From a virus, in IMG/VR virus record IMGVR_UViG_3300046535_000219, positions 1 to 38,745 of that record: a stretch of DNA of 38,745 bases. One strand, written 5' to 3'. Below are positions 1,111 through 12,416 of this stretch, in pieces. Made by a program: the position numbers and the translations under genes. Numbering within the stretch: the stretch's first letter is position 1; each line of letters opens with the position of its first letter. The notes under the pieces are model-generated. The model saw only the letters and a list, made by a program, of their open reading frames with translations, had not been told where the DNA came from and made no database searches.

Positions 1111-1119
1111 AGATCGACC

Positions 1120-1350
1120 ATGCCGCACGCGAACCATGAAAAGCGATTGAAGCGTGAGGGCTGGCCAAAGACATTTGCGCTGATGTGTTTCAACTGCAAC
1201 TGCGGGAGATTTCGGAATGGCGGTGTCTGTCCACATCAAAGTAGAAAGCTCGATCAAGTTGACACCACGCGTCAAGCAATTGTCGGGCATGTTCGACGCA
1301 CCAATTCAAAAAGTTCTATCCCACAAATGGGACGGCGATGTTCCGATTGA
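1120..1350 (+). CDS. Small zinc-binding HNH-like protein
   Basis: 76 aa, starting 9 bp after the previous stop. Residues 23-39 read CFNCNCGRFRNGGVCPH. This Cys/His-rich NGG-CPH pattern resembles the zinc knuckle found at the end of many phage HNH-type or recombination-endonuclease-like proteins. The gene overlaps the start of the ABC-GNAT gene by 134 bp in another frame. The last 35 residues therefore lie over that gene and look less constrained. It may be a remnant or a minimal zinc-finger protein. The overlap and short length make this uncertain. Confidence 0.45.
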   Translation: MPHANHEKRLKREGWPKTFALMCFNCNCGRFRNGGVCPHQSRKLDQVDTTRQAIVGHVRRTNSKSSIPQMGRRCSD

Positions 1351-2491
1351 CGAAAGACCTTGGGGCATTGGTCTGATCGTCGGCCCATCAGGGTCCGGTA
1401 AGTCCACCGTTATGCGGCATCTATTCGGTGAACAGAAAAGCCTTACTTGGAATGCGATGTCGGTGATCGATGATTTCGACAGCAAGCTATCAATAAACCA
1501 AGTCACGGATGCTTGCAGCGCAGTCGGGTTCAACACCATTCCAAGTTGGGCCAAGCCGTACGCGGTGCTGTCTACCGGGGAGAAGTTCCGTGTTGACCTT
1601 GCTCGCCATCTGATCGAGGGCGGCGACCTTGTCGTGGTGGACGAGTTCACGTCGGTGATCGACCGGCAAGTGGCGCAGATCGGCAGCCACGCGGTGCAGA
1701 AGTACATCAGGAAGACCAACAAGAAGTTCGTAGGCGTGACGTGCCATTACGATGTGATCGAGTGGTTACAGCCGGATTGGATGCTTGAACCGGCGACGAT
1801 GACGTTTCAATGGAGGGCGGTTCAGCGACGACCAGACCTTGAAGTTGAAATCGCGCGGGTCGAGCGTGCAACGGCTTGGCCCCTATTCGCTCCGTTTCAC
1901 TATCTGACAGCGGAGCTACATAGGGCAGCGGCGTGTTATTGCTTGTTCGTGGGGGGAGTACCGGCGTCATTTGCGGGAGTTCTTCATCGACCGCATTACG
2001 TCGTGCACGACATCAAGGGCGTATCGCGCGTGGTGACGCTGCCGGACTTTCAGGGGATGGGATTGGCGATGGCTTTGCTTGATACGTTGGGCGCGGCGCA
2101 TAGTGCGCTCGGGCATCGCTTTCGTATGTATCCGGCGCACCCATCGCTGGTGCGCTCGTTTGATAGATCGAAGTTCTGGAAGATGATCAAGACGCCGGGG
2201 GTGTTCTCGCCGATCCTTGGTAAGGCTTCCACGCTTGGGCGCACGATTGCGAAATTCAATCCAGACCTTGGCAAGTCTTCCGGCTTTGCGCCAGCGAACC
2301 GAACGCAGGATTATGCCAAAAAAAAATGGCACATGGGATCGCGACCGTGCGCCGTATTTGAATACGTGCACAGAGGCGATCCCATGTGCCGGGATCAAGC
2401 AACATCGCTCATAACGGGCGAAGCCGCTTCTGGACTTCGAACAGACCAAGCAATCCACGCAGCGGTGCAAAGCGCACCGGGCGCGGGTTAA
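1217..2491 (+). CDS. ABC-type ATPase fused to GNAT acyltransferase
   Basis: 424 aa. Residues ~45-195 form an ABC ATPase without membrane segments: Walker A GPSGSGKS at 56-63, signature LSTGEKFRVDLAR at 118-130, Walker B LVVVDEF at 138-144 with E143, and a switch histidine H177. Residues ~225-330 resemble a GNAT fold, with the acyl-CoA pyrophosphate loop near RVVTLPDFQGMGLA (271-284). Such soluble ABC-GNAT fusions are not transporters. Phage Mu Mom, which makes N6-carbamoylmethyl-adenine, is also GNAT-fold, so DNA base modification is a reasonable inference here with the ParB-like neighbour. The ATG has GGGAG upstream at 1204-1208. The 3' end overlaps the convergent ASCH gene by 83 bp and contains the leftward operon terminator. 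A nine-A run at 2318-2326 is a possible slippage point. Confidence 0.85.
   Translation: MAVSVHIKVESSIKLTPRVKQLSGMFDAPIQKVLSHKWDGDVPIDERPWGIGLIVGPSGSGKSTVMRHLFGEQKSLTWNAMSVIDDFDSKLSINQVTDACSAVGFNTIPSWAKPYAVLSTGEKFRVDLARHLIEGGDLVVVDEFTSVIDRQVAQIGSHAVQKYIRKTNKKFVGVTCHYDVIEWLQPDWMLEPATMTFQWRAVQRRPDLEVEIARVERATAWPLFAPFHYLTAELHRAAACYCLFVGGVPASFAGVLHRPHYVVHDIKGVSRVVTLPDFQGMGLAMALLDTLGAAHSALGHRFRMYPAHPSLVRSFDRSKFWKMIKTPGVFSPILGKASTLGRTIAKFNPDLGKSSGFAPANRTQDYAKKKWHMGSRPCAVFEYVHRGDPMCRDQATSLITGEAASGLRTDQAIHAAVQSAPGAG
2318..2390 (-). terminator. Intrinsic terminator of the leftward operon
   Basis: A perfect 14-bp inverted repeat pairs 2328-2341 with 2377-2390, with further pairing inside (CGTAT/ATACG around 2353-2365). 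Read leftward it is followed at once by the complement of nine A residues (2318-2326), a U9 tract. It begins 18 bp past the stop of the last leftward gene. This is the classical Rho-independent layout for the minus strand. It lies wholly inside the coding sequence of the convergent ABC-GNAT gene. Confidence 0.85.
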
Positions 2492-2771
2492 CAAGGACAA
2501 AGCCAAACGGCCCCTCGAAGGAGCGGTCGTTCGACTTCTCGACTACGTCAACAAGGTCAACGATGCAGACGATGCCGCCCGTTGGTAGCTCGTCGGGCAC
2601 TGCCACGCGGAAGTGCTCTGCGATCTCCTTGACCGGGCGATCATGCCAGCGTACGCCAGCATGGATCGCGAGCGGGCCACGATACTTCGTGTCCCATGTC
2701 CGGTTCTCTATACGCTTGATCCCTTCAAGGATCAGATAGGCGTAGGGTTGTCTGATAGATAGTGCCTTCAT
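2409..2771 (-). CDS. ASCH-domain protein
   Basis: 120 aa. The N-terminus MKALSIRQPYAYLILEGIKR followed by IENRTW, then KYRGPLAIHAG, is diagnostic of the ASCH superfamily, a PUA-like beta-barrel that binds RNA or modified nucleosides (some members hydrolyse N4-acetylcytidine). The central acidic segment IVCIVDLVDVV and the terminal RGLLGLFEV also fit. It is the last gene of the leftward operon. Its start overlaps the stop of the HTH gene (ATGA), so the two are translationally coupled. Its 3' end overlaps the convergent ABC-GNAT gene. The substrate is not predictable from sequence. Confidence 0.85.
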   Translation of the reverse strand: MKALSIRQPYAYLILEGIKRIENRTWDTKYRGPLAIHAGVRWHDRPVKEIAEHFRVAVPDELPTGGIVCIVDLVDVVEKSNDRSFEGPFGFVLVNPRPVRFAPLRGLLGLFEVQKRLRPL

Positions 2772-2968
2772 ATTAGCTTTTCCGTACTGTCCGGCGAGAG
2801 CCGGTGTTTGATCATGATTTTGAGCAACAAGGCAACGGACGTTGGGATCGGCGCTTCATCGGCAATCCATCTCCTTGAAGTCCGCTGGTTCACGCCAAAC
2901 AATTGCGCCGCCCCAACCTGAGACAGGTTGAGGCGGGCGATTGCATCGCGATATTCGGAGCCTGTCAT
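2768..2968 (-). CDS. Small helix-turn-helix DNA-binding protein
   Basis: 66 aa. Residues ~5-37 (YRDAIARLNLSQVGAAQLFG, then VNQRTSRRWI) form a Cro/CI-like helix-turn-helix of the putative-antitoxin type, in which SQVGAAQLFGVNQRTSRRW spans the turn and recognition helix. It probably binds DNA as a dimer and may autoregulate the operon end. It overlaps both neighbours by 4 bp (upstream 67-aa gene and downstream ASCH gene), so the three are coupled. A toxin-antitoxin reading of HTH-ASCH is possible but unproven. Confidence 0.8.
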   Translation of the reverse strand: MTGSEYRDAIARLNLSQVGAAQLFGVNQRTSRRWIADEAPIPTSVALLLKIMIKHRLSPDSTEKLI

Positions 2969-3168
2969 GTGTCCTCCTTGAAGATTGGTTCGTTGTTCGC
3001 GTCAACGACAGGGAGTAATTTGCTTGTTGGCGCATTCCATGTCGTGTCGTCGGTATCGTAGAGGACGGTCGTCGCATCGGGCGGACATCCTTGAGCGCGC
3101 TCGACCACGGATGCAGTCTCACGCGTCTTGATGTGCCATACACGTTGCCCGACTTTGAATTCATTCAT
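2965..3168 (-). CDS. Small SH3-like hypothetical protein
   Basis: 67 aa. The ATG at 3168 is preceded by AAGGAGCAATGCT, the operon's usual ribosome-binding site, so upstream in-frame starts were rejected. The sequence MNEFKVGQRVWHIKTRETAS and the following beta-rich stretch look like a small KOW/SH3 barrel (hydrophobic V-W, then a charged turn). No catalytic residues are seen. Its stop overlaps the HTH start by 4 bp. Function unknown. Confidence 0.7.
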   Translation of the reverse strand: MNEFKVGQRVWHIKTRETASVVERAQGCPPDATTVLYDTDDTTWNAPTSKLLPVVDANNEPIFKEDT

Positions 3169-3199
3169 AGCATTGCTCCTTGCTTGAAGGCCGATATGG

Positions 3200-3242
3200 C
3201 GCTTCGTGCTGCGCAGCACGAATGCTGCGCAGAGGCGAAACG
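3200..3242 (-). repeat. Type A intergenic hairpin, copy 1
   Basis: Outer arms CGCTTCG (3200-3206) and CGAAACG (3236-3242) enclose a perfect 8-bp stem GCGCAGCA/TGCTGCGC with loop CGAA. It lies just after the stop of the YD-type gene in leftward reading. The outer arm pairs through G-U as minus-strand RNA, but has a C-A mismatch as plus-strand RNA. Confidence 0.85.
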
Positions 3243-3245
3243 TCG

Positions 3246-3488
3246 TTATTTCCTTGCTGGTGTCTGGACGCTGCCGGTCTTGCGACCGTCAGCACCATAG
3301 AGTGTCGTGGTGTTTCCTTGAGTAGAGGCGCGACCGACTACGTTGCCGCTCGCGTCATAGATCGTGGTGGTTCCTTGGGTGTCGGTAGTCGAGCGTGCGA
3401 TTGCGCGCCCGTCTGGTCCGTACACCGTTGTTTGCTGCGCCGCCGCTGATGTTGCGGCGACGCAGAGTAGAACGATCAAGGTTTTCAT
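3246..3488 (-). CDS. Secreted small protein with YD-like repeats
   Basis: 80 aa. The start is ATG at 3488 with GGAG nine bases upstream; a GTG two codons earlier would sit too close to that site. Residues 1-18 (MKTLIVLLCVAATSAAAQ) are a clear signal peptide with an AAA-Q-type cleavage site. The rest consists of three imperfect repeats of about 17 residues built on TTxYGPDGRxxxRS / TTIYDASGNVVGRAS / TTLYGADGRKTGS, like YD or RHS-type beta repeats. It is probably exported to the periplasm. Similar small repeat proteins are common in rhizobial genomes. Role during infection unknown. Confidence 0.75.
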   Translation of the reverse strand: MKTLIVLLCVAATSAAAQQTTVYGPDGRAIARSTTDTQGTTTIYDASGNVVGRASTQGNTTTLYGADGRKTGSVQTPARK

Positions 3489-3494
3489 GCTCAC

Positions 3495-3980
3495 TCACTC
3501 CTTGCGCTCTGGCTGATCAAGCAACCATTGTTGACCAGCCTCCAGGCCTAGCTCGTATAGTTTCGGCATGGTCTTTCTGGCGTGATACCAATCAAGAAGT
3601 CCGTAGCAATCATTCAGAAGCGTGGCGCGTCGCACGTATTCACGTAGGAATGGCACGCCGAAATACTCGCCAATCCTTGCAAAGCCGTCCTCGGCCTTGC
3701 GAGCCGTGGGATCAATCACGATACCTTCGCGATCAATGCACCAAGCATGATCGATGGGCACGCCGTAGCACGTGACCTTGCCCTCGACATACGTCAACCA
3801 AGGACATTGGATCACAAGCCGCGTCGCATTCATGTAGCATTGCTTGATTACTCCGCGCCGCCCACTGTACGAGTGGGGCGCGACAGAGTAGCTGCGGGCG
3901 TGCGCCAACAAGAAATCGATCACAGGATTGGGACCGAAATGCTTGCGGCACGCTTCATAGTGTTGTCGTATATCACTCAT
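3495..3980 (-). CDS. Papain/transglutaminase-like Cys-His-Asp protein
   Basis: 161 aa, no family name recognised. The order KQCYMNA (C48), IDHAWCI (H78) and IVIDPTAR (D90) is that of the Cys-His-Asp triad in transglutaminase/NlpC-like papain folds, with a strand-turn between each. The ATG at 3980 overlaps the stop of the preceding 59-aa gene (ATGA). No signal peptide is seen, so it is cytoplasmic. It could be an amidase, peptidase or deamidase; an inactive relative cannot be excluded. Being in the early operon suggests a host-takeover or counter-defence role, which is inference. Confidence 0.7.
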   Translation of the reverse strand: MSDIRQHYEACRKHFGPNPVIDFLLAHARSYSVAPHSYSGRRGVIKQCYMNATRLVIQCPWLTYVEGKVTCYGVPIDHAWCIDREGIVIDPTARKAEDGFARIGEYFGVPFLREYVRRATLLNDCYGLLDWYHARKTMPKLYELGLEAGQQWLLDQPERKE

Positions 3981-4156
3981 TGCTTGATACCTCTTTCAAG
4001 GTCCTCGGCGATTTCGAGTAGCTGCAAATTGCGCAGCGTCCCGTCATCGTCCCAAGGCCAGCGTTGCGGAATGACACCGCCCAATTCCTTGATGCGGCGT
4101 TCAAGTCGCGAACGTCGTTCAAGGATGCTGCGAATGAGATCGTTGCTGTACTTCAT
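3977..4156 (-). CDS. Small charged helical protein
   Basis: 59 aa, starting at the ATG at 4156 preceded by GGAGCAACTGCT. The sequence is a charged helical pair, with an Arg-rich helix (LIRSILERRSRLERRIKELG, residues 8-27) and an acidic helix near the end (LQLLEIAEDLERGI). It looks like a short coiled-coil or helical hairpin. It overlaps the Cys-His-Asp gene by 4 bp. Function unknown. Confidence 0.65.
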   Translation of the reverse strand: MKYSNDLIRSILERRSRLERRIKELGGVIPQRWPWDDDGTLRNLQLLEIAEDLERGIKQ

Positions 4157-4209
4157 AGCAGTTGCTCCGTTGAAGAAACGCATCCAAGGATGCGGAAGAC
4201 ACCGTAAGG

Positions 4210-4252
4210 CGCTTCGTGCTGCGCACCAAGCAAGGTGCGCAGTGTCGAAACG
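4210..4252 (-). repeat. Type A intergenic hairpin, copy 2
   Basis: Outer arms CGCTTCG/CGAAACG enclose inner stem CTGCGCAC/GTGCGCAG (8 bp, 4219-4226 with 4235-4242). The loop carries CAAGCAAG. It lies between the 159-aa and 59-aa genes. The inner stem sequence differs from copies 1 and 3 but pairing is kept. Confidence 0.85.
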
Positions 4253-4263
4253 TCGTTACTTTC

Positions 4264-4743
4264 TCAGAGCGGACGTTGACGTAGTCCGGGAACGTCGCGA
4301 TTTTCGTTGTACTGCACATCGCGTTCCTGCCAACCAATTCCTTGCATACGAACGCCCTCGGGCAGGACCCACAGATGCCATTTGTTTGATGTATCGACCA
4401 AGCGACTTTCCGCTGGGTATAACTCAAACGCCTCGCGCTCTGGTCCAGCTAGTTCGTTCTTGATTTGCTGGAAGTGACGCCAATCCTTGAACATCCCGCC
4501 ATCACGTCTGCGGATGCAGAGATGCAGCATGGAATTATCAGGACCACATTTTCCGACCTGTACTTGATACAGTTCATTGATGTAGCATTCGACCATTGCG
4601 TCTGCGGCGTCGAGTTGCTTGATCATTTCCTCTTCGCTGACGCCGTAGTGCCTCGCCCCTTCCTCGACTATTTCCTTGCGGCGAAACATCTGGTCAGGAC
4701 GTAGCTTCACAAGCGGCGTCCAATGTCGCGGTAGTTTGCTCAT
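4264..4743 (-). CDS. Conserved phage protein, DUF7694-like
   Basis: 159 aa. The start at 4743 (MSKLPRHWTPL) is chosen from GGAGCACTCT just upstream. The C-terminal half contains FKDWRHFQQIKNELAGPERE, then AFELYPAESRLVDTSNKWHLWVLP. I recognise this as a strongly conserved block in many tailed-phage early regions; I associate it with DUF7694, though the name is from memory. The N-terminal ~70 residues are less conserved and helical. No catalytic residues are evident. The final ten residues after the conserved block are probably disordered. Function unknown. Confidence 0.75.
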   Translation of the reverse strand: MSKLPRHWTPLVKLRPDQMFRRKEIVEEGARHYGVSEEEMIKQLDAADAMVECYINELYQVQVGKCGPDNSMLHLCIRRRDGGMFKDWRHFQQIKNELAGPEREAFELYPAESRLVDTSNKWHLWVLPEGVRMQGIGWQERDVQYNENRDVPGLRQRPL

Positions 4744-4776
4744 AGAGTGCTCCTTGCTTGAAGTCACCGAGAGTGG

Positions 4777-4818
4777 CGCTTCGTTGCGCGCACCAAGAAG
4801 ATGCGCGCCGTCGAAACG
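4777..4818 (-). repeat. Type A intergenic hairpin, copy 3
   Basis: Outer arms CGCTTCG (4777-4783) and CGAAACG (4812-4818) enclose GCGCGCA/TGCGCGC (7 bp). The loop contains CCAAGAAG. It follows the stop of the 84-aa gene in leftward reading. Confidence 0.85.
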
Positions 4819-4821
4819 TCG

Positions 4822-5076
4822 TTAGATGATGTAGTCGGGCGGCGTCGGCCCATCAGTGAACCATTTGCGCTCGTCTAATAGGTCACTGGCGATATCCGCC
4901 GCCTCGTCGTCATCAAGGCGAACGCCGAGATAGGACCAAACGGCGACGAACAAGGGTTCGAAGCCGCATTGCCAACCAACAAGGCGCGCGTTCGCAGGCA
5001 TGTCATCGATTGATCGAACCGCCAGCGCATCGTCAACGCAGAACGAGATGTAGTCGATTGCTTGCTCGCGGGTCAT
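4822..5076 (-). CDS. Hypothetical acidic protein
   Basis: 84 aa, not recognised. It has predicted helices MTREQAIDYISFCVDDALAV and an acidic segment VRLDDDEAADIASDLLDE near the C-terminus. No membrane segment or metal motif is seen. Its ATG overlaps the stop of the 59-aa gene upstream (ATGA), so the pair is translationally coupled and likely functionally linked. Confidence 0.65.
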   Translation of the reverse strand: MTREQAIDYISFCVDDALAVRSIDDMPANARLVGWQCGFEPLFVAVWSYLGVRLDDDEAADIASDLLDERKWFTDGPTPPDYII

Positions 5077-5252
5077 CGTGTCGCCTCCCGCTTTAGTTCA
5101 CCGAGATAACCAGCGACAAAGGCGTCTTGCTCGTCCTGCGTTTCATAGGACATGCGCGCGACGAATTCCGCGCCCTCGATGCTATGTGCTCGCGCCATTA
5201 CGAAAGCGCGACCAGCCTTGTGCGCCGCAACCATTTTAGTTTCATCAGTCAT
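5073..5252 (-). CDS. Small hypothetical protein (59 aa)
   Basis: Start ATG (complement 5250-5252), preceded by the operon's GGAGCAA box; stop overlaps the start of the next gene as ATGA. Translation begins MTDETKMVAAHKAGRAFVMA, and the C-terminal half contains MSYETQDEQDAFVAGYLGEL. It is amphipathic and helical, without Cys or membrane segments. Too short to assign a family. The standard ribosome-binding site and the coupled stop make it a credible gene. Confidence 0.65.
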   Translation of the reverse strand: MTDETKMVAAHKAGRAFVMARAHSIEGAEFVARMSYETQDEQDAFVAGYLGELKREATR

Positions 5253-5287
5253 GGTAAGTTTTGCTCCGTCGTGAAGTCGCCGGATGG

Positions 5288-5331
5288 CGCTTCGTTCCGC
5301 GCACCAAGGAGCGATGCGCGGCGTCGAAACG
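5288..5331 (-). repeat. Type A intergenic hairpin, copy 4
   Basis: Outer CGCTTCG/CGAAACG; inner CCGCGCA/TGCGCGG (5297-5303 with 5315-5321). The loop contains CCAAGGAGCGA. A mini-stem GCC-GGA-(T)GGC sits on the ribosome-binding-site side. Confidence 0.85.
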
Positions 5332-5568
5332 TCAGATGTATGTCAGGAACGCCCTACCTTGATCCGTGATTGAGTAGCGGACCACGACAAGTCCTGGCGG
5401 GTTCGCGAGCGTCGATCTTCGTCGGCGCACGCGTCCTAGTTTGACCAAGGACTTTAGCGTGCCGAGATCGCAGCCTGCGTTGTTGATCAACGCATCCTGC
5501 GTGGCACCATTCGGGCAATCAGCAAGGACCCGTAAGGTGCCGACTTGAGTTCTGTTTTTATACATCAT
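5332..5568 (-). CDS. Small winged-helix-like protein
   Basis: 78 aa. ATG at 5568 (a second ATG follows directly), with GGAGCTTACT upstream. The order helix (GTLRVLADCPNGATQDALIN), helix (DLGTLKSLVKLGRV), basic turn RRRRS, then a beta-wing VVVRYSITDQGRAFL is what a MarR/ArsR-like winged helix shows, with ITDQGRAFL a typical wing-helix ending. It probably binds DNA or RNA and may regulate the phage or host. Assignment rests on pattern only. Confidence 0.6.
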   Translation of the reverse strand: MMYKNRTQVGTLRVLADCPNGATQDALINNAGCDLGTLKSLVKLGRVRRRRSTLANPPGLVVVRYSITDQGRAFLTYI

Positions 5569-5601
5569 AGTAAGCTCCGTTCTGAAGACACCAAGGATTG
5601 G

Positions 5602-5644
5602 CGCTTCGTTCCGCGCACCTTGTTAGATGCGCGGCGTCGAAACG
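5602..5644 (-). repeat. Type A intergenic hairpin, copy 5
   Basis: Outer CGCTTCG/CGAAACG; inner CCGCGCA/TGCGCGG, identical stem to copy 4 but with an unrelated loop containing CCTTG. A mini-stem CCAA-GGA-TTGG precedes it (5592-5602 region). Confidence 0.85.
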
Positions 5645-6127
5645 TCAGCGTATGTAGTTCTCGAATGCGTCGCGCAATCGCCACGCCTTACAGACCGCGC
5701 ATTCCAGTTCAGTGTCGGCGCAGCGCTGCCCGTAGTTCTTGGCGATGTACTGATCCATTCGTTTGATCAGCATCCTTGTTTCGCGATTGTAGTCACCGCT
5801 CATGCGGTGCAGATCGCCCATGTCCTTGACCGTGGAGCGCCGCTTCGATCCACCGCCGAACTTCTCCTTGAGGGTAATCAAGGCTTCGGTCAGCGGCGCG
5901 GTCATGTCGGGACGCGGCAACAGATGATCCGTCACCACGGCATGAACAAGCAAGGACGTGTCGAAGTTTTGCTCGCCATACAGTTTCCCGTTTGGCGCAA
6001 CGCCTGTTTCCCTGATCCGGCAGTTATGACCATTCGCCTCTATTTGAGTGATCATGTAATCTGTAAGACCAGTAGCGCCGCCCGCTTGCTTGACGCGGAC
6101 GATATCGCCTATTTTGAATATTCCCAT
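5645..6127 (-). CDS. Hypothetical protein with N-terminal SH3/KOW-like domain
   Basis: 160 aa. ATG at 6127 follows GGAGCAACTAAACT. Residues 1-60 (FKIGDIVRVKQ, then YMITQIEANGHNCRIRE) look like an SH3/KOW barrel. Residues ~85-155 are helical, with KRMDQYIAKNY and a C-terminal ECAVCKAW pair of cysteines (CAVC). Proteins with such barrels often bind nucleic acid or ribosome-associated factors. Its stop lies directly at the arm of hairpin copy 5. Function unknown. Confidence 0.65.
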   Translation of the reverse strand: MGIFKIGDIVRVKQAGGATGLTDYMITQIEANGHNCRIRETGVAPNGKLYGEQNFDTSLLVHAVVTDHLLPRPDMTAPLTEALITLKEKFGGGSKRRSTVKDMGDLHRMSGDYNRETRMLIKRMDQYIAKNYGQRCADTELECAVCKAWRLRDAFENYIR

Positions 6128-6164
6128 AGTTTAGTTGCTCCGTTCTGAAGTCACCAAGGATTGG

Positions 6165-6209
6165 CGCTTCGTGCTGCGCACCAATTGCTTGGTGCGCAGA
6201 GGCGAAACG
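6165..6209 (-). repeat. Type A intergenic hairpin, copy 6
   Basis: Outer CGCTTCG (6165-6171) and CGAAACG (6203-6209); inner stem of 10 bp, CTGCGCACCA/TGGTGCGCAG, with five to six unpaired bases (ATTGCT). A CCAA-GGA-TTGG mini-stem adjoins it. Confidence 0.85.
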
Positions 6210-6210
6210 T

Positions 6211-6399
6211 CTACTCGTCAGGGAAGTTCGTCATCGTCTCGTCATAGCAAGGGCCATGAAGGTCGGGCGAACATCGCTGATGTCCCTGATAGCAGGGGTG
6301 CAGTTCATTGGCGCTTTCTGCGATATTGAACCGCTGAACAAACAAACGCGCTCCGTAGCGCGTCCGTATGATCGGATTGCTTTGATATTCTTCACGCAT
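6211..6399 (-). CDS. Small Cys-containing hypothetical protein
   Basis: 62 aa. It starts inside the end of the preceding gene (8-bp overlap) and stops right beside hairpin copy 6, the layout of a normal operon member. The middle holds three cysteines (PCYQGHQRC, GPCYDE) and several His residues, possibly a metal site. No family recognised. A short gene with no ribosome-binding site of its own; translation is presumably coupled. Confidence 0.5.
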   Translation of the reverse strand: MREEYQSNPIIRTRYGARLFVQRFNIAESANELHPCYQGHQRCSPDLHGPCYDETMTNFPDE

Positions 6400-6595
6400 C
6401 GAAGTCTATCCGCACGGTCAAGGACTTCGGGTACTTGCCGCGCTCGAAAGTGGTCTTGCGAACGTACAAGGTTCCGATTTTGCAGAACGCTTGCTCGATC
6501 ACTTCGCCGCTTTCGTCCACTTCCTTGAAGCGGACCGCGCCCGGAGTTTCCTTCTCCAGTGTGAATTTGACCGTGATAGTCTTTAGCTCAGTCAT
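6392..6595 (-). CDS. Conserved small phage protein
   Basis: 67 aa. The ATG at 6595 has GGAGCAACTACC directly upstream, so a longer GTG-initiated frame reaching 6697 is rejected. The sequence TVKFTLEKETPGAVRFKEVD, then IGTLYVRKTTF and SLTVRIDF, matches a small beta-rich family I have seen in many unrelated tailed phages next to replication or recombination genes. Its biochemical role is unknown. The overlap with the next gene suggests coupling. Confidence 0.75.
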   Translation of the reverse strand: MTELKTITVKFTLEKETPGAVRFKEVDESGEVIEQAFCKIGTLYVRKTTFERGKYPKSLTVRIDFDA

Positions 6596-6859
6596 GGTAG
6601 TTGCTCCGTTGATTTGGATTGATCGATTGCATCCGGTGCCGCAATAGTGGTCGTTAGGTTTGCCAACCTGCCACACTACGCATTCGCTTATCCCCACCCG
6701 TCGGGTAACTGCCCGATATTTGCTTGATCAGCGGTCCTTTTGGGCCAATTTCTTGCGCCGCTCCGTTTATCGATCCACCGCTTTTCGGGCGGTGAGTGTC
6801 CAAGGAATGAACACTGTGAGACGGCGCGATTTCTCGCGCCGCCCTTCAGTGGTCACCAA
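6596..6859. other. Intergenic region, 264 bp, structured
   Basis: No convincing gene. From left to right it holds the GGAGCAA box of the 67-aa gene, a GC-rich palindromic stretch around CGGGTAACTGCCCG (near 6700-6716), a 6-bp hairpin CACCGC/GCGGTG (6776-6794) and the type B hairpin. It is longer than the other gaps of the operon, so an internal promoter or processing site is possible, but none can be recognised. Confidence 0.5.
6795..6851 (-). repeat. Type B intergenic hairpin, copy 1
   Basis: CACTG (6812-6816) and CAGTG (6847-6851) flank an 8-bp stem CGGCGCGA/TCGCGCCG. An adjoining small stem AGTGT/ACACT (6795-6815) competes for part of the outer arm. It lies just after the VWA gene stop in leftward reading. 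The same architecture recurs at 8447 and 9425. Confidence 0.8.
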
Positions 6860-8389
6860 TCAATGGCGTTCGCCTACGTCAATCCCGCGAGCATTCCAAG
6901 GAGTGCTTTCGAGATGTGCTCGCACGCGCACGGGATGTCCCGTGACAGCGAACAAGACAGGGCAATGCGGCTCGGGTCCGGGATCACCGATGTCCAAATC
7001 GGTGAAACAGACAATCAAAGTCGCATCGTCAACATTTTGTGCGACGTGAGCAAACAGCGGCTTGAGATTGGTGCCGCCGCCGCCGCGCGGATCGAATTCG
7101 ACATCATCGCCCGTGCGATACTCGTCAACACGCGTGACTTGCGTGTCGCCGTACACGGCAACGACTTCGTCGATGATCCCGTCATCAAGCAAGGCTTGCG
7201 TCTCCTGACTGATCGCTGCCAGCGCGATGTCATCCATCGAGCCGGAAGTGTCGATCAAGAAAACCGCTTTGCTGACGCCGTCCTTCTGCGTCGAGGGCAT
7301 TATCAGTCCGCGTGCTTGGTGCCGCCGATTGGGGCGGTTCCAAGTTTCAACACGCAATGCACCTTGTTCGCAGAATTCGCGGAGTTCATCCCGCCAATCA
7401 CGCGGCGGGTTGTTTGCTCGTTCGATATCGCGTGAGACGTGGCCGGGCAATTGCCCGATGGCTTTCGCCATCGACGCCGCTTGCCGCACGTTCTTTTCCC
7501 ACTCGATATCCTTGTCGGCGAGTTCAGTGGCGTCTTCAGAGCTATCAAGGACTTCGCCGCACTGTCCGGGATCGCCGGAAGAGCTTTGACCCTCGTTGCC
7601 TTGTTCGTCACTGTCTGCGTCGCCCGGTTCGCCCGCGTCACCGTTGCCGGTGTCTGTGGCATCGCCCTCGCCATCGTCAGCGTCGCTGCTGCCGTTGCTT
7701 GGTTCGTCGCCGGGTTCGTCGCCCTCGCCTTGATCGCCCTCGCCTTGGTCGCCGTCTTCGCCAGCATCACTGCTATCGTCGCCGTCGCCTTGGTCCTCGT
7801 CGGTGTCAGCGTCATCGGGAGCGTCACCGCTGCCTTGTTCGCCGTCATCGTCGCCGGGATCGCTGTCGGCGTCATCGGGGGCATCGCTGCCACCTTGTTC
7901 GCCGTCATCGTCGCCATCGTCGGGCTGTTCCTGTTCTTTTTCTTTTTCCTGTTCTTGTTGCCGCCGCTTTTGCTCGGCTTCAAGCTCGCGTATCCGGTAA
8001 ATGTCCTCTGCGCTCAACCCGCGAAATCGCGGATCGATCAGCGCCCCTTTCGGGAGCGTGAAACCTTCATCGATCAGGTCGATATTGATCGCGTAGTCGC
8101 ACGCTTCGTTCCATTTGATTGGATCGCGACCATTGCGACGCGTACCATGATGTCGGGCGTCGTGCTCAGTTTCGTGAGCCTGAACGCCGTACAGTTCATC
8201 ATAGGACAACGTCGCAATGAAATCAGGATTGAAAAAGTGTTGCTTGCTGTTGGTCGCCATCGTGGGAAACTTCCGCGACGGGACCGGCTCAACATGCGAC
8301 ACAAGGACACCATAGAAACGGCGTTCCTTGATCAGATTTGCCCGCACTTTCAAGATGCGATCAAATGCTACTTCATCAATCGTACTCAT
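6860..8389 (-). CDS. VWA-domain protein with HExxH metallopeptidase-like N-terminus
   Basis: 509 aa; ATG at 8389 with GGAGCAATCTACT. N-terminal ~130 residues resemble the DUF2201_N metallopeptidase-like domain, with HETEH at 72-76 followed by HH and NEACDYAINIDL. Residues ~155-330 are an acidic, Gly/Ser-rich low-complexity linker with near-identical tandem units (EQG-G-DAPDDADSD type). The C-terminal VWA domain has a complete MIDAS: DTSGS 380-384, T440 and D464 (FTDLDIGD). VWA proteins of this type work with MoxR AAA+ ATPases to remodel or insert metal into protein complexes. The MoxR gene is two genes upstream in the same transcript. Cytoplasmic; target unknown. Confidence 0.88.
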   Translation of the reverse strand: MSTIDEVAFDRILKVRANLIKERRFYGVLVSHVEPVPSRKFPTMATNSKQHFFNPDFIATLSYDELYGVQAHETEHDARHHGTRRNGRDPIKWNEACDYAINIDLIDEGFTLPKGALIDPRFRGLSAEDIYRIRELEAEQKRRQQEQEKEKEQEQPDDGDDDGEQGGSDAPDDADSDPGDDDGEQGSGDAPDDADTDEDQGDGDDSSDAGEDGDQGEGDQGEGDEPGDEPSNGSSDADDGEGDATDTGNGDAGEPGDADSDEQGNEGQSSSGDPGQCGEVLDSSEDATELADKDIEWEKNVRQAASMAKAIGQLPGHVSRDIERANNPPRDWRDELREFCEQGALRVETWNRPNRRHQARGLIMPSTQKDGVSKAVFLIDTSGSMDDIALAAISQETQALLDDGIIDEVVAVYGDTQVTRVDEYRTGDDVEFDPRGGGGTNLKPLFAHVAQNVDDATLIVCFTDLDIGDPGPEPHCPVLFAVTGHPVRVRAHLESTPWNARGIDVGERH

Positions 8390-8411
8390 AGTAGATTGCT
8401 CCGTGATTAGA

Positions 8412-8431
8412 ACCGTCCTTGTTGGGACGGT
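8412..8431 (-). repeat. RBS-side hairpin
   Basis: ACCGTCC/GGACGGT, 7 bp, with loop TTGTTG, lies between the type B hairpin and the GGAGCAA box of the VWA gene. Equivalent ACCG..CGGT stems occur at 9393-9411 and 10996-11011, with sequence-different but paired counterparts at 11282-11296 and 11611-11634. Confidence 0.7.
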
Positions 8432-8446
8432 AGTGCTCGGATTGAA

Positions 8447-8483
8447 CACTGTGGGGCGGCGCACGAATGCGCCGCCTTCAGTA
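8447..8483 (-). repeat. Type B intergenic hairpin, copy 2
   Basis: Outer CACTG and CAGT(A) flank a 9-bp stem GGCGGCGCA/TGCGCCGCC with loop CGAA (8455-8476). It sits between the stop of the 292-aa gene and the VWA gene. Confidence 0.8.
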
Positions 8484-8493
8484 GTCAGCCGTA

Positions 8494-9372
8494 TCAACCA
8501 AACAATGCACTAACAGCACTGACAATCTGATCAGCGCTTTTGCGCACGTCGGCGCGCACCGCGTCGTTCTCGCGGAGCGTTTCGGGTTCCTCGACGCACA
8601 ATTCCTTGACGATGCGATTTGTGATCGCCGTCAATTTGGCGTCGCCTGTCAGATTGAACGCGGGCAGCAATTCGGCTAACTCGCGGACATTTCCAACAAG
8701 ACTGTCGCGGAAGCATTTGCCATCGGTGGTCTTATACTCACCGAGTTTTTCGGACATGCGACCAACGGTATCGATGATCCGTTGTGCCGCATCCTGCATC
8801 GCCTTGTTGACTGCGTCCTTGGACGTAGTCTCCAATTGCTGGCGTATTTCCTCAACGGTGTCTTCGTCCAGTTCAGAACGAAAATCAGTCGCATCAGGAA
8901 ACGGCAGGATTGTCAGTTCGAAGCGGAACTTCGATCTGATTTCCTTGGCCGAAGGATAATCGGCCGCATTGAACAGGCCGTTTAACTCCTTCTGGCGTTC
9001 CGCAACAAACGAAGGAAAGTCGGCGGCAAACTTATCCGCCGCCTCGTTGAATTCCCGCTTCAAGTTCCGAAATTCATCGGTGAACTTCGTATACAAGGCA
9101 TTCGAGAGAATGCGCGGGCCTTCGTCTACCCACGGCAGCGTCATCTTGTAGTGCATATGACGTGCCTTGGATGCCGCGCCGACGATGTCGGCAAGGTGCT
9201 GTGCGGCGATCAACAACTTGTTGTACCGTCCAGCGTCCTTGGTCGCGTTGTATTTGGTGTTCGTCTCGTCGGTGACTTTCTTGTCGAGCTTGCGAGCCGT
9301 CCAAGAAGAGATGTTCACCGAAACAAGAAGAGCCTTACGCGACAGCGGTGTTGTAGTTGTAATCTTAGTCAT
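8494..9372 (-). CDS. Helical protein of the MoxR-VWA triad (DUF3150-like)
   Basis: 292 aa, almost all helix. ATG at 9372 has GGAGCAATCTT upstream. The N-terminal part LVSVNISSWTARKLDKKVTD, the segment WVDEGPRILSNALYTKFTDE and the coiled-coil FRNLKREFNEAADKFAADFP are reminiscent of DUF3150-type proteins that travel with a MoxR ATPase and a CobT/VWA protein on plasmids and phages; the family name is tentative. It lies exactly between the MoxR and VWA genes, each pair separated by a type B hairpin, so it is probably the adaptor or substrate-binding part of a three-part machine. No enzymatic motif is visible. Confidence 0.75.
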   Translation of the reverse strand: MTKITTTTPLSRKALLVSVNISSWTARKLDKKVTDETNTKYNATKDAGRYNKLLIAAQHLADIVGAASKARHMHYKMTLPWVDEGPRILSNALYTKFTDEFRNLKREFNEAADKFAADFPSFVAERQKELNGLFNAADYPSAKEIRSKFRFELTILPFPDATDFRSELDEDTVEEIRQQLETTSKDAVNKAMQDAAQRIIDTVGRMSEKLGEYKTTDGKCFRDSLVGNVRELAELLPAFNLTGDAKLTAITNRIVKELCVEEPETLRENDAVRADVRKSADQIVSAVSALFG

Positions 9373-9392
9373 AAGATTGCTCCGTTAGATAA

Positions 9393-9411
9393 ACCGTTCC
9401 TTGGGAACGGT
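9393..9411 (-). repeat. RBS-side hairpin with CCTTG loop
   Basis: ACCGTTCC/GGAACGGT, 8 bp, three-base loop TTG. It precedes the GGAGCAATCTT box of the 292-aa gene. Confidence 0.7.
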
Positions 9412-9424
9412 AGTGCCCGTTTGA

Positions 9425-9471
9425 GCACTGTGAGACGGCGCACGCCTTGTTCGCGTGCGCCGTCCTCAGTG
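9425..9471 (-). repeat. Type B intergenic hairpin, copy 3
   Basis: Outer CACTG/CAGTG; inner stem of 11 bp, ACGGCGCACGC/GCGTGCGCCGT (9435-9445 with 9453-9463), loop CTTGTTC. It follows the stop of the MoxR gene. Confidence 0.85.
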
Positions 9472-9476
9472 ATCAG

Positions 9477-10502
9477 TTATTGGACGTTGATGTCTTGATA
9501 CTTCACCGCCCACTCTCCGTAAGCGGCGGTGTTTTTTAGTGTCTCGTCGCGTGTTGTTGCATCGTGCACGACCAACATTCCGCTTTCACGCGGAAGTCGC
9601 TCGGCGTATTTAACGACCGCAGGCATAGTCGCCTTGGTCGCCATACGCGCAAGACCCGTGCACGTCGCGAACCTGATAGACGGCTCAGTCGGCACCGGAG
9701 CATTCACCGGGTCCTTGAGGATATCTTCCAAGGAACCAATCGAATGATACAGGTCGATAAAGCCATCGATCTCCGATGCGACTGCATCGCCCACGTGGGC
9801 AGCAAGCAATCGCACGCGGTGTCCGCGCGGTGCGTTGACGTATTTCGCGGCACGCGTGATGGATCGCGGTGTCGGAAATGCGTTCTCGTCGCCAACAGGC
9901 ATCATGTGCAAGCATTCGCGCCGCAGTCTGATGAAGGCGACCATTTCAGGCGCAACGCCATTGGCGTTTGCCCAATCGCACCAAGCAACAACATCGGGAG
10001 CCACGAACAAATGCGCAAAGCGATTGCGCAATGCCGTTGGCATTCGTTGCGCGGATGCGCGATCAGCGACGCGGTTTCCTGCGGCGACGATAACCCATCC
10101 TTTCGGCAACTCATACTCACCGACTTTACGATCAAGGATCAACTGGAACATGACCGCCATCATTTGAGGCGATCCAGTGTTGATCTCGTCAAGGAACAGA
10201 ATGCCGAATTCGCCATCGCGATCAACGCGGGGAAGTTCGTCAGGGACGAACCACCTTGTTGTTCCCGTGACCATGTCTGGAACCGGAATTCCTCGCACGT
10301 CAACGGGCTCGCGAATGTTGGTCCGAAACTCAATCACCTTGCGGGATGTTTCCATTCCCATTTGGCGAATGATGTCGGACTTGCCGACGCCGGGCTTTCC
10401 CCAAATCATTACGGGATCACCTTGATCGGTCAGCAGTCGCACAAGAAGTGCGGCTTCTGAAATCGTACATTCGTGTTCTTTGATTGATAGTACGTTACTC
10501 AT
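9477..10502 (-). CDS. MoxR-type AAA+ ATPase
   Basis: 341 aa; ATG at 10502 has GGAGCAACTAGCT upstream, so a much longer in-frame extension is rejected. AAA+ core: Walker A GKPGVGKS (35-42), Walker B ILFLDEI (101-107), sensor-1 Asn in VAAGNRVADRAS (N143), and Arg-finger region ALRNRFAH (158-164). The insert EFRTNIREPVDVRGIPVPD after helix 2 is typical of the MoxR clade. MoxR ATPases pair with VWA proteins to remodel protein complexes; the VWA partner is two genes downstream. Cytoplasmic hexamer expected. Its presence on a phage suggests host-complex remodelling, a counter-defence role, or a virion assembly aid; the sequence does not decide. Confidence 0.92.
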   Translation of the reverse strand: MSNVLSIKEHECTISEAALLVRLLTDQGDPVMIWGKPGVGKSDIIRQMGMETSRKVIEFRTNIREPVDVRGIPVPDMVTGTTRWFVPDELPRVDRDGEFGILFLDEINTGSPQMMAVMFQLILDRKVGEYELPKGWVIVAAGNRVADRASAQRMPTALRNRFAHLFVAPDVVAWCDWANANGVAPEMVAFIRLRRECLHMMPVGDENAFPTPRSITRAAKYVNAPRGHRVRLLAAHVGDAVASEIDGFIDLYHSIGSLEDILKDPVNAPVPTEPSIRFATCTGLARMATKATMPAVVKYAERLPRESGMLVVHDATTRDETLKNTAAYGEWAVKYQDINVQ

Positions 10503-10525
10503 AGCTAGTTGCTCCGCTAAAGAAA

Positions 10526-10547
10526 ATGGCCCGTCTGTGCGGGCCAT
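10526..10547 (-). repeat. RBS-side hairpin of the MoxR gene
   Basis: ATGGCCC/GGGCCAT, 7 bp, 8-base loop, about 10 bp upstream of the GGAGCAA box. A second stem AAACACC/GGTGTTT (10550-10567) next to it overlaps the outer arm of type A copy 7, so the two cannot form together. Confidence 0.7.
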
Positions 10548-10562
10548 TAAAACACCGTTTGG

Positions 10563-10605
10563 TGTTTCGTGCTGCGCTCCTAACAAGGAGCGCAGAGGCG
10601 AAACA
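10563..10605 (-). repeat. Type A intergenic hairpin, copy 7
   Basis: Outer TGTTTCG/CGAAACA (fully paired on both strands, replacing the G-U of other copies by A-U), inner 10-bp stem CTGCGCTCCT/AGGAGCGCAG with loop AACA. Confidence 0.85.
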
Positions 10606-10608
10606 TCG

Positions 10609-10974
10609 TTAGATGCTATCAAACAAGGCGGCTTCGGCTTCGGCGAGTGTGGGCCGCGCCTCGTTGCAAGGGTGCGTCCAAGAAAACACATACTCGCCGC
10701 CCTCGCAGCGTATCCACCAGATTTGCCCGTCCCAATCGTAGGAATAGACTTCGCTGGCGGGTGCGTTGCTCGGGTACAAGTCATCCACGTTCCTTGTTGT
10801 GGATCGTGTCGCGCGGAACTGTTCAAGAGAAACGCGCGTGAGACGCGCGATTATCTCGGTGTATTCCGTTTCTTGTTCCTCGCTTGTGCAGTAATCAGAC
10901 CGCATTGTTTTAAGACCGCAAAGGATCATAGATAGATCGGCTGCGGTGACTTGGATAAAGGACTTAGCGATCAT
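10609..10974 (-). CDS. Hypothetical protein (121 aa)
   Basis: ATG at 10974 with GGAGCAACTACC, the consensus site of this operon. The N-terminal half is helical (SMILCGLKTMRSDYCTSEEQ, a long charged helix to ~residue 60). The C-terminal half is beta-rich and aromatic (SYDWDGQIWWIRCEGGEYVF), ending in an acidic helix TLAEAEAALFDSI. Four cysteines are scattered. No family recognised. It lies immediately upstream of the MoxR gene in the transcript and could be linked to that system. Confidence 0.65.
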   Translation of the reverse strand: MIAKSFIQVTAADLSMILCGLKTMRSDYCTSEEQETEYTEIIARLTRVSLEQFRATRSTTRNVDDLYPSNAPASEVYSYDWDGQIWWIRCEGGEYVFSWTHPCNEARPTLAEAEAALFDSI

Positions 10975-10995
10975 GGTAGTTGCTCCGTGGTTAGA

Positions 10996-11011
10996 ACCGC
11001 TCGTAAGCGGT
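10996..11011 (-). repeat. RBS-side hairpin
   Basis: ACCGCT-CGTA-AGCGGT, 6 bp stem and four-base loop, between type A copy 8 and the GGAGCAA box of the 121-aa gene. Confidence 0.65.
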
Positions 11012-11020
11012 GAAGCGGGA

Positions 11021-11065
11021 TGCTTCGTGCTGCGCTCCCAAGCAAGGGAGCGCAGAGGCGAAACA
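11021..11065 (-). repeat. Type A intergenic hairpin, copy 8
   Basis: Outer TGCTTCG/CGAAACA with one G-U in minus-strand RNA; inner 10-bp stem CTGCGCTCCC/GGGAGCGCAG (11030-11039 with 11046-11055). Confidence 0.85.
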
Positions 11066-11068
11066 CCG

Positions 11069-11260
11069 TCAGATGATTGCGATAAAGAGAACTGTCGGCG
11101 CTGAACCGCCGCCGACTACAGCCTGTCCTTCATCCTCTAAGTCGCCAAGGGCGATCAGATAATCAGGATCATGCGGCGCATCAGGAAAGCATTCGGACAA
11201 TTCGCATTGCCCGCGCAGGATTTCCTCGTCGCCGTCGCAGTCATATACTTGAACCAACAT
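11069..11260 (-). CDS. Small acidic hypothetical protein
   Basis: 63 aa. ATG at 11260 follows GGAGCAAACTAAA. The sequence is strongly acidic (YDCDGDEEILRGQCELSECF, then DPDYLIALGDLEDEG) with three Cys, then a hydrophobic end APTVLFIAII. Acidic small early phage proteins often mimic DNA or bind host basic proteins, but there is no specific evidence here. Upstream frame extension is rejected on ribosome-binding-site position. Confidence 0.6.
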   Translation of the reverse strand: MLVQVYDCDGDEEILRGQCELSECFPDAPHDPDYLIALGDLEDEGQAVVGGGSAPTVLFIAII

Positions 11261-11281
11261 TTTAGTTTGCTCCGTGGTAGA

Positions 11282-11296
11282 CCGCGCATTGCGCGG
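11282..11296 (-). repeat. RBS-side hairpin
   Basis: CCGCGC-ATT-GCGCGG, 6 bp, between type A copy 9 and the GGAGCAA box of the 63-aa gene. Confidence 0.65.
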
Positions 11297-11305
11297 GAAG
11301 CGGGA

Positions 11306-11346
11306 TGCTTCGTGCTGCGCTCCAAGGAGAGCGCAGTGTCGAAACA
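11306..11346 (-). repeat. Type A intergenic hairpin, copy 9
   Basis: Outer TGCTTCG/CGAAACA; inner CTGCGCTC/GAGCGCAG (8 bp) with loop CAAGGA. It begins just after the stop of the 80-aa gene. Confidence 0.85.
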
Positions 11347-11347
11347 T

Positions 11348-11590
11348 TCAGCGGACTTTGATCAAGGAGTTCTCAAAAGAGCGCTTTGCTTTTTTGAGAA
11401 TTTCGATTTCGCGTTTGGTATTTGCTAGTTCAAGTTTCCAATCGCGATTGTAGATGCCCGCATCATTCCAGCCGGAATTAGTTTTCTGTCTGGCGACGGA
11501 TGCGCGGAGTTGAACAATGCGAAAGCATACCGCCTCAATGTGCGAGGCGATTTCCACTTTGCGCAGTTGCTTGTTCGTGAAGTACGTCAT
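11348..11590 (-). CDS. Small coiled-coil protein, first gene of leftward operon
   Basis: 80 aa. ATG at 11590 follows GGAGCAAATACT. The N-terminal helix LRKVEIASHIEAVCFRIVQL and the C-terminal LANTKREIEILKKAKRSFEN are strongly heptad-like, with a short polar link containing NSGWNDAGIYNRDW. A helical hairpin or dimeric coiled coil is expected. No function recognised. As the most promoter-proximal gene it is probably the most highly expressed leftward product. Confidence 0.65.
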   Translation of the reverse strand: MTYFTNKQLRKVEIASHIEAVCFRIVQLRASVARQKTNSGWNDAGIYNRDWKLELANTKREIEILKKAKRSFENSLIKVR

Positions 11591-11610
11591 AGTATTTGCT
11601 CCGTGAGGGA

Positions 11611-11634
11611 CGCGAGCAAGGTTTCTTGTTCGCG
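11611..11634 (-). repeat. RBS-side hairpin of the first leftward gene
   Basis: CGCGAGCAAG/CTTGTTCGCG, 10 bp with one wobble, loop GTTT, between type A copy 10 and the ribosome-binding site of the 80-aa gene. Confidence 0.65.
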
Positions 11635-11640
11635 GAAGCG

Positions 11641-11697
11641 GGTGCTTCGTGCTGTGGCCAAACCCGGAGCAGGGTCAAGCCACAGTGTCGAAGCACC
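11641..11697 (-). repeat. Type A hairpin, copy 10, in the operon leader
   Basis: Outer arms GGTGCTTCG/CGAAGCACC (9 bp, fully paired), inner CTGTGGC/GCCACAG (7 bp), 20-base loop. It is the only copy with a long loop and the only one not preceded by a gene. A competing 8-bp hairpin CACCAGTG/CACTGGTG (11694-11715) shares its outer arm. Confidence 0.8.
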
Positions 11698-12056
11698 AGT
11701 GGGAGCACACTGGTGTCAACCAAAGAACCCATTCAAGGCATCGTCCTCTAAGCGTAATCATCAGTCGCTTGATCGTTGCTACTGCGGCCTTCTGTCAGAC
11801 ATTCGCGGGATCAAACAAGGAACTTTCGGATCGGGCCTACTCGTTCACTCTCGTATTTCGGCATCACGAACGATGCGCGTTTGAATGGGGTGTTTCCTTG
11901 ATCGCGCGGCGTTGCTGCGCTCGTCGCCTCACTACTGCGGCCTTCTATCAGACATTCGTGAGCAAGGAGCGCAGCGGACGGCTGCGATCAAAAGGAAACG
12001 CCTTGCTCGATTTCGACACTTCCGACTTTAGCCATAAAGGCGCGGCGCGCATCTAA
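11698..12056. promoter_or_regulatory. Divergent leader region with paired structured repeats
   Basis: No credible gene; the open frames here are poorly constrained and lack ribosome-binding sites. A 27-bp direct repeat CTACTGCGGCCTTCT..CAGACATTCG occurs at 11779-11805 and 11932-11958 with one mismatch. Each copy is enclosed by an inverted repeat: TTGATC/GATCAA (11769-11774 with 11809-11814), and for the second a large stem of GTTTCCTTGATCGC (11892-11905) with 11984-11999, plus GCTGCGCTC/GAGCGCAGC and CTCAC/GTGAG inside. This could be a pair of small structured RNAs, an operator array or an origin. The leftward promoter must lie around here, but no consensus -35/-10 could be picked with confidence. 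Confidence 0.55.
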
Positions 12057-12416
12057 TCAAGCAAGGTTTCGTCTACTCCCGTCACGTGCCACTATGTATT
12101 GGCGTTCTGCGGGAACTGCGGTGGGCTTGTGTCTCCGTGCCCGAGAGGGCAGCGTAGGGCATTGCGCCCTATGTGTCAATGCGCTCATTTCGCCTATGAT
12201 ATCAATGGCTTACGCCGTATCGGCTAGGGCATAACGCCCCAAATGATCAAGCAAGGCAATGTATGAGAGTATTTGCGAGTAGTGGTTCGCGCATAGAGTG
12301 CCTTGATCGGCGCGTGGGGACCATCAAGGAGCCATCAAGGCACGCAAGGGGCGTGGCTAGGCAGGAGGCACGCAGGGCGCTAAAAGCGTGAACGGAGCCA
12401 GAACCAAGGAACCAAC
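12057..12416. other. Upstream region of terminase, candidate cos/packaging site
   Basis: About 360 bp with no gene seen. Three compact hairpins lie together: TGCCC-GAGA-GGGCA (12138-12151), TAGGGC-ATTGC-GCCCTA (12155-12171) and GGGC-ATAAC-GCCC (12227-12239), the last two sharing the pattern AGGGCAT..CGCCC. The stretch 12243-12430 has about seven CAAGG/CCTTG pentamers. In lambda-type packaging the cos site lies just upstream of the small-terminase gene, so this is the expected place. No cohesive-end sequence can be identified by eye. It should also carry the late rightward promoter. Confidence 0.4.

Follow-up and report, generated by a model that had tools for sequence, protein, structure and literature searches.

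Trp-type attenuators choose between competing hairpins built from ordered strands (1:2, 2:3 and 3:4), and the choice is gated by a ribosome. The ribonuclease III sites of phage T7 are hairpins with an internal loop, about ten of which lie between genes of its transcripts. In RNA-unfolding translational coupling, the upstream ribosome is believed to open a structure in which the downstream start site is hidden; examples are E. coli rpmI-rplT, phage f1 VII-IX and MS2 coat-lysis (reviewed in PMC12548453), and the known cases are single, gene-specific start-site structures. Cluster K mycobacteriophages carry SAS/ESAS, a multi-copy inverted repeat of ~50 bp (PMC3203893, PMC11373665). Here we describe a repeated RNA element between the genes of a leftward operon in the 38,745-nt IMG/VR viral contig IMGVR_UViG_3300046535_000219 (G000; the whole contig is called the window below). 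Its mode of action would resemble that of RNA-unfolding coupling and of competing-hairpin attenuators, here in the form of a portable module that is repeated and consists of a stop codon, two helices separated by a loop, and a third strand that very probably competes for one of them.

The main form, type A, has an outer helix, P1, of GUUUCG and CGAAGC (CGUUUCG/CGAAGCG with one U.G pair), a 3x2 internal loop with 3 nt on the 5' side and 2 nt on the 3' side, and an inner helix, P2, of variable sequence that is mostly 8-12 bp and sometimes longer. The arms of P1 are strands 1 and 2; strand 3 (GCUUC or CUUC) lies 4-20 nt 3' of CGAAGC in nearly every copy and pairs with strand 2 as helix P3. A preliminary description of the window had listed ten such cassettes, each after a stop codon. 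All ten are where it placed them, but a scan found no stop of a long open reading frame (ORF) ahead of copy 10, and the count of ten is right for type A only: with three missed CACUG/CAGUG hairpins (type B), the minus strand of the operon holds 13. Its outer arm folds as described, with the U.G pair substituted by U-A in copy 7 and C-G in copy 10, its inner stem does vary across the ten copies with both sides changing together, and a GGAGC box precedes the next ATG in 10/10 gaps. Six CGUUUCG/CGAAGCG copies match the arm pattern, compared with none for the reversed-pattern control. With a covariance model, the ten copies score 41-70 bits on the minus strand and far lower on the opposite strand. 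The type-A features of the window are as follows.

3200-3242 (-): copy 1, P1 CGUUUCG/CGAAGCG, loop CCU/CA, P2 of 10 bp; 69.6 bits
3186-3189 (-): strand 3 of copy 1, CUUC, pairing with strand-2 GAAG
4210-4252 (-): copy 2; 65.9 bits
4195-4198 (-): strand 3 of copy 2, CUUC
4777-4818 (-): copy 3; 54.5 bits
4760-4763 (-): strand 3 of copy 3, CUUC
5288-5331 (-): copy 4; 56.9 bits
5273-5276 (-): strand 3 of copy 4, CUUC (GAAGCGCC/GGCGACUUC)
5263-5267 (-): strand 4 of copy 4, the GGAGC Shine-Dalgarno (SD) box of the next gene, predicted to be hidden with strand 1 and free if strand 1 is masked
5602-5644 (-): copy 5; 67.2 bits
5584-5587 (-): strand 3 of copy 5, CUUC
6165-6209 (-): copy 6; 60.7 bits
6147-6150 (-): strand 3 of copy 6, CUUC
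10563-10605 (-): copy 7, U-A in place of U.G in P1; 62.3 bits
10549-10556 (-): strand 3 of copy 7, GGUGUUUU pairing with GAAACACC, altered jointly with strand 2
11021-11065 (-): copy 8; 54.8 bits
11012-11016 (-): strand 3 of copy 8, GCUUC
11306-11346 (-): copy 9; 52.8 bits
11297-11301 (-): strand 3 of copy 9, GCUUC
11643-11695 (-): copy 10, C-G in place of U.G in P1, longer P2; 41.5 bits
11635-11639 (-): strand 3 of copy 10, GCUUC

It is near certain that this is a structured RNA element of the transcribed strand, as the preliminary description had argued from compensatory change and strand polarity. In an alignment of 77 distinct copies (A4), which was fitted to the model and is hence biased towards structure, 13/17 pairs are changed on both sides, with 237 doubly changed cells compared with 59 in shuffles; 0/500 shuffles match the score, and slid partners fail. 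The fraction of paired cells in the same alignment, 96.9%, is inflated, given that the seed-set filter required P2 pairing; the pattern scans used to gather loci required at most three closing P2 pairs. A gap-free alignment that was not model-fitted gives a similar covariation picture. Compensated changes of P2 pairs can be followed directly in the corresponding gap of two close relatives, L042 and L046 (CUGCGCGUCC/GGGCGCGCAG versus CCGCGCAUCC/GGGUGCGCGG). As to polarity, the copy at 3200 scores 69.6 bits on the transcribed strand and 26.8 on the opposite one.

The internal loop is conserved as a mismatch. Its P2-side position forms a standard pair in 1/95 hairpins, where 16.3 are expected (0/20,000 permutations), and the outer (first.last) position in none, where 3.6 are expected (p ~0.003), whereas a true P2 pair used as control has 92 standard pairs against 40 expected. 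The letters themselves vary (A.A, C.A and G.G beside P1; A.C, U.C, C.U and G.A beside P2) and yet stay mismatched, hence what is conserved is the geometry and not the sequence.

The preliminary description had listed a second stem behind the hairpin. This stem is not independent: its 5' strand is the CGAAGC of the outer arm, so it competes with the first stem. As in competing-hairpin attenuators, P1 and P3 are both conserved, mutually exclusive and built on one shared strand, and since that strand is strand 2 of both, the two helices cannot coexist. We consider their mutual exclusivity very probable. A 4-nt match to strand 2 is found within ~40 nt downstream in 84/96 copies, compared with 40/96 in a mirror-image upstream control, and a 5-nt match in 53/96 compared with 10/96; often P3 is extended further (GAAGCGCC/GGYGACUUC). 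Strand 2 is altered in eight copies, four of which have a matching strand 3 and four no clear P3. The matched variants of strand 2 and strand 3 are GGAAC/GUUCC, GCAAC/GUUGC, GAAAC/GUUUC and GAAACACC/GGUGUUUU. The sequences thus show P3 in most copies, and a degree of triple covariation. In 87/96 copies the first or second pair of P1 is flawed, usually by U.G, and P3 has C-G at that base; in L020 the flaw is C.A and the matching P3 pair U-A. The P1 flaw sits where P3 pairs properly, and the wobble of the preliminary description is therefore usually the sole base that distinguishes strand 1 from strand 3. We ruled out a triple helix on P1, given that strand-3 variants obey antiparallel complementarity (GGAAC/GUUCC, GCAAC/GUUGC). 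Alternative pairing of P1 and P3 is thus strongly supported by comparison of natural sequences, and two mutually exclusive helices, each supported by natural conservation, are a new feature of the element.

The plan recurs in other sequences. When the fetched phage DNA was scanned for two-part hairpins of any sequence, 3x2 loops proved to be enriched (117, compared with 22-68 for each other loop size), with a stop codon adjacent in 76/117 and a strand 3 in 44 compared with 17 in the mirror control. Further classes read, for strands 1/2/3, GUUCA/UGAGC/GCUCA and GUUCC/GGAGC/GCUCC, and L228 and L231-L233 combine CGUUCAG/CUGAGCG and GCUCA with a loop of 2x2. About half of the matches in the GUUCA pattern scan are chance, the genuine ones being L118, L119, L228, L231-L233 and L238. 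Type B in the window has an equivalent three-strand plan, CACUG/CAGUG/GCACU; in viral contigs, the type-B pattern is matched by the near-identical L022, and all 10 further matches look like chance. Its features in the window are:

9426-9471 (-): type-B hairpin between the MoxR ATPase and DUF3150 genes, P1 CACUG/CAGUG
9412-9418 (-): its strand 3, GGGCACU, pairing with AGUGCUC
8447-8483 (-): type-B hairpin between the DUF3150 and VWA genes, arms CACUG/CAGUG
8432-8438 (-): its strand 3, GAGCACU, pairing with AGUGUUC
6812-6851 (-): type-B hairpin 3' of the VWA gene, arms CACUG/CAGUG
6795-6801 (-): its strand 3, GGACACU, pairing with AGUGUUC

Two 55-nt hairpins in contig L036 (~910-1460, +), an unrelated phage, combine a 3x2 loop with an outer stem of 11-12 bp (GUGUGGCCAU/AUGGCCACAC); a copy of GUGUG lies downstream, and the hairpins are possibly an additional class of this design. 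The preliminary description, right in proposing an RNA element, had overlooked both the exclusivity of its second stem with the outer arm and the recurrence with other sequences; together, these favor a strand-exchange switch over a simple processing site or a 3' stabilizer. Two of the checks that the description had set for itself, covariation and occurrence in relatives, turned out in its favor.

With a stop codon in its A site, a ribosome's mRNA channel reaches ~9-11 nt past the stop. Among the 85 copies for which an upstream ORF was found, the stop codon ends 1 nt before P1 in 39 and 1-10 nt before it in ~67, so that, as in RNA-unfolding coupling, the upstream stop or the ribosome on it overlaps the structure. 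The distance from the stop to the first base of P2 is close to fixed, at 10 nt in 39/71 and 11 nt in 14/71 copies, and a terminating ribosome would therefore cover strand 1 and the loop and halt at P2. We propose a cis-acting RNA switch of competing strands, located between phage genes that share a transcript. As a rule, strand 1 (GUUUCG) begins 1-4 nt past the upstream stop; it pairs with strand 2 (CGAAGC) as P1, which the 3x2 mismatch loop separates from P2, a strong, sequence-free hairpin. A terminating ribosome would cover ~10 nt beyond the stop, that is, strand 1 and the loop, and melt P1 alone while leaving P2 untouched. Strand 2, freed in this way, would pair with strand 3 (GCUUC, 4-20 nt on) as P3. 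Otherwise strand 3, and in some window copies strand 1 too, could pair with the GGAGC SD box of the next gene; P3 formation would expose the box and thereby couple the translation of the two neighboring genes. In the window, strand 3 and the GGAGC box are complementary (GCUUC:GGAGC), and the resulting arrangement is 1:2 plus 3:4 versus 2:3.

Such a switch would share with trp-type attenuators the ordered strands, the exclusion of 2:3 by 1:2 and a ribosome covering strand 1; the SD box of window copies would be hidden by 3:4. However, it would read termination rather than codon stalling, mostly lacks a terminator and is present in many copies per operon. Unlike the known cases of RNA-unfolding coupling, it is portable, recurs after many genes, is anchored to the stop codon and would use strand exchange. 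If the mechanism is true, phages balance many small genes on one long transcript by reading translation termination, with the stop codon, P1, the loop, P2 and strand 3 as the module.

Folded ensembles computed for 69 elements are consistent with an effect on the SD box. Masking strand 1 and the loop in silico raises the accessibility of the SD hexamer from 0.48 to 0.60, compared with 0.54 to 0.58 for random cores of like design (real versus random, p=8e-5), and accessibility rises in 9/9 testable window copies, for example from 0.21 to 0.93 and from 0.04 to 0.77. Stop-codon readthrough was considered and rejected: up to the next ATG, the frame of the upstream gene stays open in 42/65 cases, no more often than the other frames (43/65 and 37/65).

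Several observations weigh against the proposed coupling. The effect of masking on the SD box is modest on average, and head/tail swaps between copies retain it, so that no pairwise co-evolution of strand 3 and the SD box is visible in them. In the GUUCA class, masking frees the SD box inconsistently; SD hiding is predicted for the window copies and the type-A average, and inconsistently for other classes. A clear P3 is missing in ~12/96 copies, three GGAAC variants among them, and the computed mean stability is slightly greater for P1 (-7.9 kcal/mol) than for P3 (-6.6 kcal/mol). Given the swap control and the inconsistency in other classes, the switch is better supported than its output. We infer that the gating is by a ribosome, that the SD box is affected and that the coupling is positive; the whole chain, from terminating ribosome to positive coupling, seems to us nearly as likely to be right as wrong. 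The broader picture of a portable, sequence-interchangeable switch after gene upon gene, in which each departing ribosome flips the RNA by a toehold-like exchange, thereby licensing the following gene, and translation is relayed along the operon, is possible, although we lean towards doubting it.

A translational insulator is one alternative. On this account, the post-stop hairpin blocks terminating ribosomes from scanning onward, P3 compacts the space before the start, and the genes start independently. The element lies 1-2 nt past the stop in most copies, and each gene is preceded by a strong SD of its own. In a library screen cited in the review PMC12548453, structure immediately 3' of a stop codon is reported to lower coupling, which fits an insulator better than a coupler and also counts against the switch. 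Any stable hairpin would suffice for insulation, however, with no need for a mismatch loop or strand exchange, and relatives such as L008 get by with plain hairpins or none; we consider it unlikely. Processing by ribonuclease III is a second alternative. The P1-P2 rod, a ~17 bp stem with a conserved, asymmetric, never-paired loop, would be cut between genes akin to the T7 R sites, so that cistrons gain their own ends, and P3 would be either the structure left in front of the next gene or something that restrains the cutting. The multi-copy intergenic hairpins with internal loops within a single transcript resemble T7, but we know of no competing third strand or fixed stop-codon spacing in the T7 sites. 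The account leaves the 10-11 nt from stop to P2, the conserved strand 3 and the P1 flaw at the position of a perfect P3 unexplained, and P2 varies in length from 8 to 12 bp or more. It too is improbable in our view.

Many RNA-binding proteins recognize stems with internal loops, and a phage or host protein could bind P1 and the loop, the best-conserved portion of the element, to control translation, decay or antitermination, with P3 as the unbound form. The recurrence of the plan with different letters argues against simple sequence-specific binding: similar operons have the equal plan with differing P1 sequences (GUUCA, GUUCC, CACUG), and the loop letters change while the mismatch persists. 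Nor is there an obvious phage-encoded reader. Among 15 element-bearing contigs, several of which are fragments, no non-repetitive protein family is common to all; a repetitive tail-like family in 13/15 is the only one common to nearly all, MoxR and VWA genes occur in 8/15 and a DUF3150-like gene in 7/15. The ribosome, or another machine of the host, is thus the simpler reader, and a protein site is rather improbable. The many copies, their cassette-like position behind single genes and repeats in alternating direction could instead point to DNA, either as inverted and direct repeats to which a DNA protein binds or as a hairpin involved in mobility or recombination, for example an integron attC site or an ESAS-like operator. 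We regard this as highly implausible, given that the U.G pair is conserved on the transcribed strand, the model score of ~70 bits on that strand falls to 27 on its complement, and stem covariation and fixed stop-codon spacing are signs of RNA. In addition, no sigma-70-like promoter was found on the minus strand at the elements or elsewhere in window positions 1-13000.

Comparison with named elements gave no match. Integron attC cores read RYYYAAC and GTTRRRY (R'/R''), and the outer arms GTTTCG/CGAAGC do not fit them. An intrinsic terminator was ruled out, as no U run follows P1/P2 in any of the ten window copies. SAS/ESAS is similar in that an inverted repeat precedes a conserved box, which lies close to the start codon in non-structural genes of the phage, but ESAS arms lack RNA covariation and hold a putative promoter (sigma-70-like -35/-10 hexamers), whereas the arms here covary, a third strand is present and the element is anchored to the stop codon of the preceding gene. 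The strong covariation and the lack of a promoter-like site on the minus strand (1-13000) do not fit ESAS arms, and the 13-bp cluster K box beside the start codon, GGGATAGGAGCCC (PMC3203893), differs from ACGGAGCAA in the window. Rfam 15 has no window match at the gathering score and chance-level matches only in a permissive search, in agreement with the preliminary description, which knew of no named element of this form. As tested, the element is therefore not an Rfam family, SAS/ESAS, attC or an intrinsic terminator. Among cultured phages, megablast with the operon found no match and blastn with hairpin queries only chance-level ones.

The element is a widespread structured RNA that is not listed in Rfam. 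Using a loose-arm pattern followed by a covariance model (R1) built from 15 equal-length copies, we found it in 42/44 other viral contigs tested (41 without G001, which is near-identical to the window), a fraction that is not a frequency, since the set was mostly chosen for containing candidates. It is also present in 11/272 Bradyrhizobium genomes and in Bosea lathyri; a 398-genome sample of the order added none beyond two genomes already within the Bradyrhizobium set. Genome records match IMG/VR contigs with identical element hits in two cases (L109/L137 and L091/L136), which suggests proviruses. Phages with the element mostly infect Bradyrhizobium-like soil bacteria, and the host of the window phage is, by inference, Bradyrhizobium-like. 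The window encodes a terminase, portal, major head, sheath and tape-measure protein and hence belongs to a contractile-tailed phage. In the leftward operon, genes for small unknown proteins lie alongside those for a MoxR-type AAA ATPase (phrog_1297, AAA_5), a protein with a weak DUF3150 match and a VWA/metallopeptidase-like protein (DUF2201, phrog_1314).

In relatives of the operon, corresponding gaps contain plain GC-rich terminator-like hairpins (L008 at 11070, 13590 and 16173; L013 at 8084 and 11846; all +). Type-A hairpins number none in L008 and one in L013, and a type-B-like hairpin is kept in both, at 12027 in L008, by position between DUF3150-like and VWA genes, and at 6521 in L013. 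In L103, L111, L113, L116 and L119, the gene 3' of an element belongs to one family of small arginine-rich genes (~DAMRRMLTARERVARR close to the N-terminus), and P2 differs each time. Two elements of L113 (7695-7768 and 8177-8222 plus downstream, -) share a mini-hairpin (~CAGGTTTTTGCTTTCCGCAAAATACCGG), which is placed in the P2 loop in one and in the P3 loop in the other, as though it had entered loops with both stems spared. Immediately upstream of copy 10 in the window (11696-11720, -) is a further short inverted repeat (ACCAGTG-TGCTCC-CACTGGT), which may belong to the operon leader. Between the copy-7 element and the MoxR gene lies a typical intrinsic terminator (GGCCCGCACAGACGGGCC AUUUUCUUU; 10525-10548, -), whose hairpin is separate from the element. 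At the corresponding spot, L016 and L010 have differing GC hairpins, each with a U run behind it, and a terminator guarding the MoxR gene seems to be conserved across the three.

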